32,046 nucleotides of DNA from Rhizobiaceae bacterium. Lineage in GTDB: Bacteria; Pseudomonadota; Alphaproteobacteria; Rhizobiales; Rhizobiaceae. Shown piece by piece: positions 7,520 through 11,012 of the stretch. The position numbers and the translations under genes are program-made. The stretch covers positions 1 through 32,046 of the forward strand of contig JABSRX010000087.1 of NCBI GenBank assembly GCA_013214695.1, read 5' to 3'. The notes beneath the pieces are model-generated. The model saw nothing but the letters and a program-made list of their open reading frames with translations. It did no database searches and was not told the origin of the DNA. The first letter of the stretch is position 1. Every line of letters starts with the position of its first letter.

Positions 7520-9313
7520 CTACTGACCCATTTCGTGAATCAGACGTTTCAGCAGCTCGATCTCATGTGCCAGCTTGTCATCTTCCTTCAGCAGGCTCTC
7601 GATCTTGCGCACTGCATGCAGCACTGTCGTGTGATCCCTGCCACCGAAACGACGGCCGATTTCGGGCAGTGAACGCGGGGTCAGAATCTTCGACAGATAC
7701 ATGGCAATCTGGCGCGGCCGCACGATTACGCGGGTGCGACGGTTGGACAGAAGATCGTTCTTCGACACGTTGTAGTGCCGTGCCGCGACTTTCTGAATGT
7801 CTTCGATGCGAACCCGCTTTTGCTCACCGGACTGAACCAGATGGCCGAGCATCTTCTCAATGGCTTCGATATCAACCGGACCTTCAGAGAAGCGATGTTG
7901 GATCAGCAACTGATTGAACGCCCCTTCAAGATCGCGGCCCGATGAGGCCACTTTCCCTGCGACGAAATTCAAAATGTCGGTCGGGATGTCCAGATTTGGG
8001 TCTTCCTGTTGGGCGTATTTGTACCGCAGTTCCAACATCTCCTGGCGCATTTCCAGATCGGGCGCCTTGATTTCGAGAGCCACACCCCCCTGCAGCCGCG
8101 AGCGAACGCGGGCATCCAGCGATTCCAGCTGCGATGGTGGTCGGTCTGCAGCGACGACAACCTGTTTGGCGCTGTCAATCAGCGCGTTCAACAGGTGGCA
8201 GAATTCCTGCTGGATCGATTTGCCTTGCAGGAACTGCATATCGTCGATCAACAGCAGATCGATGTCGCGCAGCGATTCCTTGAACGACAGGGCGTTGGAA
8301 TCGCGGATTGCGGAGGCAAAGCGCCACATAAAATATTCAGCCGTCAGATACAGGATTTTGGTACCGCTGTTACGGGCGCTGGCGGCCCAGGCAATGGCCT
8401 GCAGCAAATGGGTTTTGCCCAAGCCGACATTGGCGTGAATGAACAGAGGGTTGAATCGCGCAGCCGCGCCATCGGCTTCGGCAACGGCGCGTGCGGCCGC
8501 GCAAGCCATGCGGTTGGAACTGCCTTCGATCAGCGTGGCAAAGGTAAAGCTCGGGTCAAGCGGCGAGCCCGCAAAACCAACCGCAGCGTCACGCTGCGTA
8601 CCCAGGCGGGCGCCAGCGGATGGCTGCATGTTTGCGGCATAGCCCATTCTGTGATGGGCATTGCTGCCAGCGCCGGCGCTGGTTCCCATTCCCGGAAGTG
8701 GCGAAGTCGGTGTGCGTCCGTCGGCGGCATCAGGGTCGCCATTGCTGTCGACATTTCCGTTGGTGTTAGGTGCAGCAGCCTCGCCATTCTCCATGTTGGC
8801 GGAGCGCACGGCACTGCGCACGACCACGTCAACCCGCAGAATTTCGGCAACCTGTTTCTGCCACAGCTCCAGCAGCAGATCGTTGTAATGGGTCTTGATC
8901 CAACTCTTCAAAAAGGTGGTTGGTACCGAGATGGTCAGCTGGCTCTTCGACACAGTTTCCAAGCGGCAGCGACCAAACCAACTGGCAAAGGCTTCTGGCC
9001 CAAGACGGGCTTTCAACTGCGCCAGAACTCTTTCCCATTTCTGGCTGTCGCGGGCATTGATTGTCGGACCAACCTGCTTGGCGGTTATTGTGCGAACCGG
9101 TTTCGATCCAGTCGAGGTGTCCTGGATAGGCGTGCGGGCCGTGGACTTAGCAGCGGATCCAGAAAGGGCATTGCGGTCAGCTTTGGTTGCAAGGTCATCT
9201 TGATTTCGGCTGCGCCCGGTGGCGTTGCCGTCGCCGCGTTTGGCATTGGATATTGGCATGATAATTCCGTACATCGATTTTCTGCGTTGCATGCGCTCGA
9301 ACTGCCGTCGCAT
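7520..9313 (-). CDS. dnaA: Chromosomal replication initiator DnaA
   Basis: [22 protein letters not shown] (Walker A), [15 protein letters not shown] (Walker B), [22 protein letters not shown] (domain IV signature). Start uncertain; in-frame ATGs also at 9292, 9274 and 9259. Confidence 0.97.
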
Positions 9314-9530
9314 GCGTGAACCCGAAAGGGTCTGTCGACCTGTGCCGACCAGGAAATGGATGCGGAATTATTCGTGTGCAGGGTTGCGTCGTTTACTCCC
9401 GTCCAACGTCTTTCTCATAGCCCTCGGTTTCCCCATAATATTCATTCGTCTGCCTCCATGCTGGCCTTTGGCCTATTTTATCCGAACGGCTATGGACCTA
9501 ACCGATGGGTTTGTTTTTTTGATTGCTGAT

Positions 9531-9959
9531 CTAGCGTTGCTGCCAGGGCAATCCTTCTGCTTTCCAGCCGTTTCTTCCGCCCCGGTGACCATCACTGTCC
9601 AAGTCACCTTCGAAACCACCAGAAATATTAAAACTGTTTGCAAAGCCGGCTGCCGACATCGCCTCGGCTGCCGCCAGACTGCGAACACCCGAACGGCACA
9701 AAAAGCACAGCTTTGATTCCGTATTTGCACCTGCAGCCTGCAGCTTGTCCTGAAGTTGGGCGACGAAATTGCCGTCCACCGCCATCTCAGGAAAAACCTG
9801 CCATTGCTGCAGAAGGATCGGTTGCATGTTGCCGGTCAGCTGCGGCAGGCCAACATAAGCCCACTCGGCCATGGTCCGCACATCAATGATGAACGCGTCG
9901 GCGTCTTGATCCAGCAGATCCCAGCATTGTTGGACCGTAAGGTCCCCGGCATAACTCAT
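9531..9959 (-). CDS. Rhodanese-like sulfurtransferase domain protein
   Basis: CWDLLDQDADAFIIDVRTMAEWAYVGLP and active-site loop LCFLCRSGVRSLAAAEAM, FNISGGFEGDLD. Start trimmed to MSYAGDL. Confidence 0.9.
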   Translation of the reverse strand: MSYAGDLTVQQCWDLLDQDADAFIIDVRTMAEWAYVGLPQLTGNMQPILLQQWQVFPEMAVDGNFVAQLQDKLQAAGANTESKLCFLCRSGVRSLAAAEAMSAAGFANSFNISGGFEGDLDSDGHRGGRNGWKAEGLPWQQR

Positions 9960-10040
9960 CACACAACTACCCTGTGGCGACATTTGATCAATGCAGCCCA
10001 ACCCAACTAAATTCTCTATTCCTAATGTTCCCCAGTTACT

Positions 10041-10180
10041 CGGTGTCTTAGGAAAACAAAAACACCGTCTGCCTGAAGTTTGCGAAATCCCAAGTATATC
10101 CGCAAACTTTTCAAGTTTAATTTCCCCAAATTAAACTTGAAACTGATTGTTGGACCAGGGGCCAACTAATCAATCAGTTT
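10041..10180. repeat. Cluster of four consecutive inverted repeats in the rpsT-rhodanese/dnaA intergenic region
   Basis: CGGTGT/ACACCG (10041-10046/10062-10067); AAGTTTGCG/CGCAAACTT (10076-10084/10101-10109); TCAAGTTTAATTT-CCCC-AAATTAAACTTGA (10111-10140, perfect 13-bp arms); AAACTGATTG/CAATCAGTTT (10140-10149/10171-10180). Confidence 0.85.
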
Positions 10181-10290
10181 AAATCGTATTCAAAACTTAC
10201 TTTACCAAACTCACCTACCAAAGCCAGCATATACGCGGGGTTTGGGGTGTTCAAGACGACTCGTCGGTGAATCTTTATCGGCGGCGTCGC

Positions 10291-10306
10291 GCAAAAATAT
10301 TTTTGC
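10291..10306. repeat. Perfect 16-bp palindrome GCAAAAATATTTTTGC
   Basis: Read directly; self reverse-complementary. Confidence 0.85.
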
Positions 10307-10389
10307 TGTGTCACCAAAAAACCGACTTTGAAAAATGCTTATGAATCAATCCGACTCAGTTTTCGTTTCCCGGAAATTTCTCGAATCCT

Positions 10390-10410
10390 GCAAGAATAAT
10401 TTTTTCTTGC
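10390..10410. repeat. 7-bp perfect inverted repeat GCAAGAA-TAATTTT-TTCTTGC
   Basis: Read directly; arms 10390-10396 and 10404-10410. Confidence 0.8.
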
Positions 10411-10654
10411 CATTTCCCCCCTTGACTCGAATTTACTCAATGAACCTGGCAGGTGCTCTAAGGTAAGAAAATGCTACCTCTCAGAACATATTGAAATTGT
10501 TGGATAATTCTTGACACAAAACTGTAGCGTTCAAATTCGGAGATTCTGATAGGAATTTGCGATTTTGGGATACGGCTGACAACTTTCGGCGGCAGCGGCG
10601 GTTATCACCTGAAATTTGGTGAAGGCAAATTAGCTGAATTTGGCGCCAAAAATA

Positions 10655-10683
10655 AAAGCCCGCCTCGGGTAAAGGCGGGCTTT
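10655..10683. terminator. Rho-independent terminator, symmetric; serves rpsT on the minus strand
   Basis: AAAGCCCGCC (10655-10664) / GGCGGGCTTT (10674-10683) with 9-nt loop, downstream of the rpsT stop. Confidence 0.85.
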
Positions 10684-10745
10684 GATTAGATTCCAATGTC
10701 GACTTGGCAGCGCGCCAGGTGACTATTGTATAAACGCGAAATTAA

Positions 10746-11012
10746 TTAGGCGCCGAGTGCTTTTACACGTGCAGAAAGACGTGAAATCTTTCTAGAAGCG
10801 GCATTTTTATGAATAATACCTTTGGAAGCCGATTTCATTACAACTGGCTGCACCAGCTTCAGCTGGTTCTGAGCTGCTTCCTTGTCGCCAGCGGCGATGG
10901 CTTCTTCCATTTTGCGGAGCTGACCGCGCATATGGGTGCGGCGTGATTTGTTGATCGCCGTCTTGCGGGCGATTTTACGTGTGGCTTTCTTTGCCGAAGT
11001 CGTATTGGCCAT
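10746..11012 (-). CDS. rpsT: 30S ribosomal protein S20
   Basis: [39 protein letters not shown]...[23 protein letters not shown], 88 aa. Confidence 0.98.

Follow-up and report, generated by a model that had tools for sequence, protein, structure and literature searches.

Four closely packed hairpins upstream of rhodanese and dnaA in an uncultured Rhizobiaceae genus: a putative fast-evolving mRNA leader

Four inverted repeats lying between the rpsT and rhodanese genes of an uncultured Rhizobiaceae genus are, with a probability that we put at about two in three, hairpins of a putative fast-evolving, structured 5' leader of a rhodanese-dnaA mRNA. The element most likely represents a lineage-specific version of the long dnaA leader known from related rhizobia, a placement suggested by where it lies and by the strand bias that its relatives show in folding. 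The window, that is, the whole stretch of 32,046 nucleotides that was analysed, contains the following features at this locus:

7520..9313, minus strand: dnaA (Pfam Bac_DnaA, E 1e-61), given as the longest ORF; the true start may be further in
9531..9959, minus strand: single-domain rhodanese (Pfam PF00581, E 8e-8), probable start ATG at 9959, longest ORF to 10001
9960..10220, minus strand: putative leader RNA at the 5' end of the rhodanese-dnaA transcript, with a predicted start site
10041..10067, minus strand: H1, dyad CGGTGTTTT...AAGACACCG of 9 pairs, read on the sense (minus) strand
10076..10109, minus strand: H2, AAGTTTGCG...CGCAAACTT, 9 perfect pairs, or 11 when G-U pairs on the minus strand are counted
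10109..10142, minus strand: H3, perfect inverted repeat of 15 bp with a 4-nt CCCC loop
10137..10183, minus strand: H4, dyad AAACTGATTG...CAATCAGTTT with an inner GTTGG/CCAAC stem
10223..10254, minus strand: promoter-like element TTGAAC-N17-TATGCT, directed at rhodanese-dnaA
10258..10428, no strand assigned: cluster upstream of the promoter, made up of six GANTC (CcrM-type) sites within 170 bp and including conserved GAATCA-N4-GANTC and CTTGACTC blocks
10655..10683, minus strand: rpsT terminator, setting the leader apart from rpsT transcription
10746-11012, minus strand: rpsT

Along the minus strand the order is thus rpsT, its terminator, the remainder of the 744-bp intergenic region, rhodanese, dnaA and dnaN. 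Rhodaneses of relatives align with the long ORF from about its residue 12-15 onwards. Neither the leader nor the interval between rhodanese and dnaA yielded a terminator, and the longest minus-strand ORF in the leader of the window encodes only 47 aa. In the relative G005 the rhodanese gene abuts dnaA, an arrangement suggestive of a rhodanese-dnaA operon in that genome. Alternatively, dnaA could be driven by a promoter of its own in 9313-9530. Most of the other Rhizobiaceae examined have no rhodanese at dnaA; a few neighbours (L060, L061, L063, L066, L068 and L069) do have the two genes linked.

The four dyads, together with five copies of the motif AAGTTT/AAACTT, were found at the places given in the sequence-only reading. 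Its perfect hairpin with a CCCC loop was also recovered, with arms of 15 bp at 10109-10142 instead of 13 bp at 10111-10140. Base 10109 is common to H2 and H3, and H3 overlaps H4 by about 6 bases. Shuffled sequences with equal structure, named beforehand as evidence against the dyads, did not turn up: none of 200 dinucleotide shuffles folded as well as the 145-nt dyad region, whose z-score was -5.63 for the minus and -5.87 for the plus strand. The region also had the lowest z-score among 426 tiled windows of 150 nt covering both strands of the whole 32 kb. Since the two strands of the source genome are about equally unusual in their folding, the choice of strand rests on the relatives. Apart from H3, the window has no perfect inverted repeat with arms of at least 13 bp and a loop of at most 30. 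Perfect repeats of the size of H3 are rare, two (arms of at least 13, loop of at most 10) being found in 400 kb sampled from the relative G007. A search of the source genome with H3 or with a 351-bp region found only the query itself, H3 being single-copy, and a dispersed repeat was rejected.

When the whole leader was folded, H2 and H3 had pair probabilities near 1. H1 forms locally, with a pair probability of about 0.8-0.99, and meets competing pairings in the whole-leader fold. There, the dyad register of H4 also competes with other pairings, and the source genome prefers a shifted register. In this fold a large part of the probable rhodanese ribosome-binding region is paired and the ATG is largely open. 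Searches against Rfam at gathering and permissive thresholds returned nothing over the dyads beyond chance-level matches, and the loci of 14 relatives gave no Rfam match at gathering score.

The window belongs to an uncultured genus for which 15 genomes were collected, 13 of them (the source included) being aligned over the intergenic region. Conservation in this region is located at 10210-10500, in the promoter-like element and the GANTC cluster with its invariant GAATC and CTTGACTC, and not at the dyads. The promoter-like element is recognisable in 9 of the 13 aligned genomes, and the 4 others have no recognisable promoter anchor. At the same position and within the same order of blocks, other Rhizobiaceae carry TTGATC-N17-CTAAAT. 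A simple sigma-70 scan misses the element of the window because its -10 differs from TATAAT. The GAATCA-N4-GANTC and CTTGACTC blocks are kept throughout the genus and occur in similar form in 54 other Rhizobiaceae; the GANTC block likely serves the methylation-linked control of dnaA. Among the rhizobia examined, the conserved promoter-like block stands 490-620 nt before dnaA, which exceeds the 369 nt published for A. tumefaciens, a species outside this set and known here from that published figure alone. The dyads of the window start about 40 nt downstream of the predicted transcription start, within the rhodanese 5' leader. The NtrX motif CAAAACCCTTG belongs to the dnaA promoter of S. meliloti, and in the genus member G007 (locus L049), about 520 nt past rpsT, an exact CAAAACCCTTG overlaps the promoter-like element. 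The source genome has CAAACCCCGCG instead and the Sinorhizobium context differs, so that this match was set aside as a probable coincidence.

Folding at the leader position was then compared between strands. Over the 220 nt before rhodanese, the genus gave a mean z-score of -1.87 on the sense strand vs -1.13 on the antisense strand, the sense strand being more negative in 10 of 13 genomes, a count that is not made of independent observations because the relatives share ancestry. For the adjacent conserved block of the genus the mean was about 0. Several members (G003, G013, G009, G005 and G012) show no folding excess. In 55 other Rhizobiaceae lacking the rhodanese, tiles 200-600 nt before dnaA had z-scores of -2.0 and -1.7 on the sense strand vs -1.1 and -0.6 on the antisense strand. 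Aligned leaders from two clusters, of 10 and 5 species, yielded consensus energies of -157 and -200 on the sense strand vs -96 and -116 on the antisense strand; the column shuffles behind these energies do not keep dinucleotides, and their informative part is the strand contrast only. No conserved ORF was seen among the family leaders listed. Folding at the leader position thus recurs among relatives, and the individual helices change quickly between species.

This turnover is apparent already in the nearest species, G002 and G004, whose leaders are 51-54% identical. Conservation in close relatives had been set beforehand as a test of the dyads, and H1, H2 and H3 failed it, with no in-register pairing in either species. 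H4 fared better in part: both species have a hairpin at the same place with compatible changes, a correspondence that holds only with a 1-nt gap in the loop and in a register that the source genome does not prefer. The conservation and covariation of H4 are therefore at most suggestive, and we dropped it as a clean case of covariation. The null probability of 0.0004 obtained for H4 counts G002 and G004 as independent and cannot serve as a p-value. A sister trio (G008, G011 and G013) has a consensus fold of its own with 73 pairs, 7 of them with compensatory changes, even though G013 taken alone shows no folding excess.

The sequence-only reading had spoken of a leader, and this part of it has held: a conserved promoter-like element on the minus strand precedes the dyads, rhodanese-dnaA follows them, and the relatives are folded there on the dnaA-sense strand. 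Like the long dnaA leader of rhizobia, the element is placed between rpsT and dnaA, below a promoter that is recognised by sequence only and points towards dnaA. An excess of structure on the sense strand is found at genus and family level, the two strands of the source genome being about equal. As we picture it, leftward transcription would begin at the promoter near 10223-10254 and run along the minus strand into rhodanese, probably on into dnaA. The hairpins would fold as separate, successive stem-loops; judging from the fold, they would most likely govern how stable the message is and how well it is translated, and present targets to RNases and small RNAs, as described for the long dnaA leaders of rhizobia and Caulobacter. 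Between species the set of helices would turn over fast, with foldedness kept at the position.

Several long dnaA leaders or neighbouring transcripts are known from related bacteria. In S. meliloti, the transcript sra10 of 383 nt lies between rpsT and dnaA in the direction of dnaA (PMC2245857). It occupies the same syntenic interval, in the same direction, as the leader of the window, for which a length of about 260 nt is predicted, and the two are likened by position, direction and size, not by their helices. It was set aside by its authors for a possible ORF of 101 aa, and no rhodanese is present there (PMC2245857). The A. tumefaciens RNA C3, originally described as an sRNA, was later reinterpreted as a possible portion of the 369-nt 5' UTR of dnaA (PMC3738593). 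C3 is thus a case of a long dnaA leader in the same kind of neighbourhood that was first seen as a small RNA; it leads directly into dnaA, whereas in the window the rhodanese gene is interposed, and the likeness is drawn without sequence comparison. The dnaA 5' leader of Caulobacter crescentus controls translation and is needed for the nutrient and starvation control of DnaA synthesis (PMC4489657). It is also a long alphaproteobacterial leader, of 155 nt and hence shorter than that of the window, and is likened to it by description, not by homology. Finally, the sRNA EcpR1 controls the S. meliloti dnaA mRNA, which carries a long putative 5' UTR (PMC4414408). This is a long 5' UTR under RNA control, as in the reading proposed for the window, but the effective sites of EcpR1 are the ribosome-binding site and the start codon of dnaA, not distal leader hairpins.

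Other explanations of the dyads were weighed against the leader. According to the sequence-only reading, H2 and H3 could yield to a hairpin at 10104-10118, making the site a switching leader of the attenuator or riboswitch kind. The six-base arms of this hairpin are complementary as described, and the site is a probable leader. Forcing the alternative nevertheless raises the energy of the fold from -50.9 to -36.4 kcal/mol, a cost of about 14.5 kcal/mol, and its pair probability in the full leader is below 1e-8; the mutually exclusive pairing exists on paper and is energetically negligible, and the leader fold contains no two mutually exclusive folds of comparable stability. Moreover, no U run follows any of the hairpins, hence no terminator arm, on the minus strand the 5' arm of H3 is made ahead of its competitor, the two nearest species do not share H2 and H3, and no Rfam family reaches threshold. 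The label "switchable" was accordingly given up, and we regard a switch as highly improbable. The same reading had also proposed a replication-control element, and one may imagine cruciform or protein-binding dyads recognised by DnaA, IHF or CtrA for the control of replication or of the nucleoid. H3 is a long perfect palindrome that could extrude, the conserved GANTC cluster adjoins the dyads, and a CtrA-like TTAA-N7-TTAA with one mismatch is present at 10179. DnaA boxes, however, are absent from 9314-10746, where neither TTATCCACA with at most 1 mismatch nor TTWTNCACA was found. The IHF-like site claimed in H4 (WATCAANNNNTTR with one mismatch) does not exceed chance, with 7 such matches in the window vs 14.7 expected. 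The gene hemE is the usual marker of the rhizobial origin, and it lies 245 kb from dnaA in the relative G007, in which the GC skew, measured coarsely on 20 noisy points, has no clean change at dnaA. An origin thus fails on the absence of DnaA boxes and is disfavoured by the position of hemE. Besides, the dyads are unconserved while the neighbouring GANTC block is conserved, and a DNA element does not need the sense-strand folding bias of the relatives. We consider a DNA element quite unlikely.

The dyads might otherwise belong to a separate small RNA, made from the same promoter and acting apart from rhodanese-dnaA. The discrete 383-nt band by which sra10 was seen and the initial naming of C3 as an sRNA would fit such a product; yet no terminator lies between the hairpins and rhodanese, the later study suggested that C3 is within the dnaA 5' UTR, and the sequence conservation typical of a trans-acting RNA is not seen, which makes a separate small RNA very unlikely. 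The dyads could also be functionless, arising by chance or left as a relic of a palindromic mobile element. The absence of H1-H3 from the nearest species and the fast evolution of the region speak in favour of this. Set against them, the dyad region is the best-folding segment of the window, the source genome holds no other copy, and folding at this position recurs in relatives. Chance or a relic is accordingly an unlikely explanation.

The leader of a rhodanese-dnaA mRNA thus remains the preferred explanation, and the locus is probably a known kind of leader RNA in a new gene setting. Long dnaA leaders of Alphaproteobacteria act in the nutrient and stress control of DnaA, and the structure and function of those of rhizobia are poorly defined. 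The sense-strand signal seen in more than 50 Rhizobiaceae dnaA leaders, outside Rfam, offers a concrete place at which leader control of replication initiation could be tested. A broader proposal, which we advance tentatively and hold to be doubtful, is that an undescribed class of dnaA leaders, structured, fast-evolving and absent from Rfam, is common to the Rhizobiaceae, and that in the present genus, where rhodanese lies between such a leader and dnaA, a sulfur-transfer enzyme and the replication initiator would be produced under a single folded leader. It is unusual that, in one genus, a rhodanese gene is interposed between the leader and dnaA.

Two of the genomes assigned to the genus depart from the others. 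G006 (locus L041) is the only member in which rpsT is present without a linked rhodanese or dnaA in the stretch that was fetched. G014 (locus L046), a genome of 0.9 Mb assigned to the same genus, has a rhodanese-rpsT interval of 291 bp with 23% GC and without the conserved blocks; its rpsT is only about 67% identical, so that the genus assignment looks odd.
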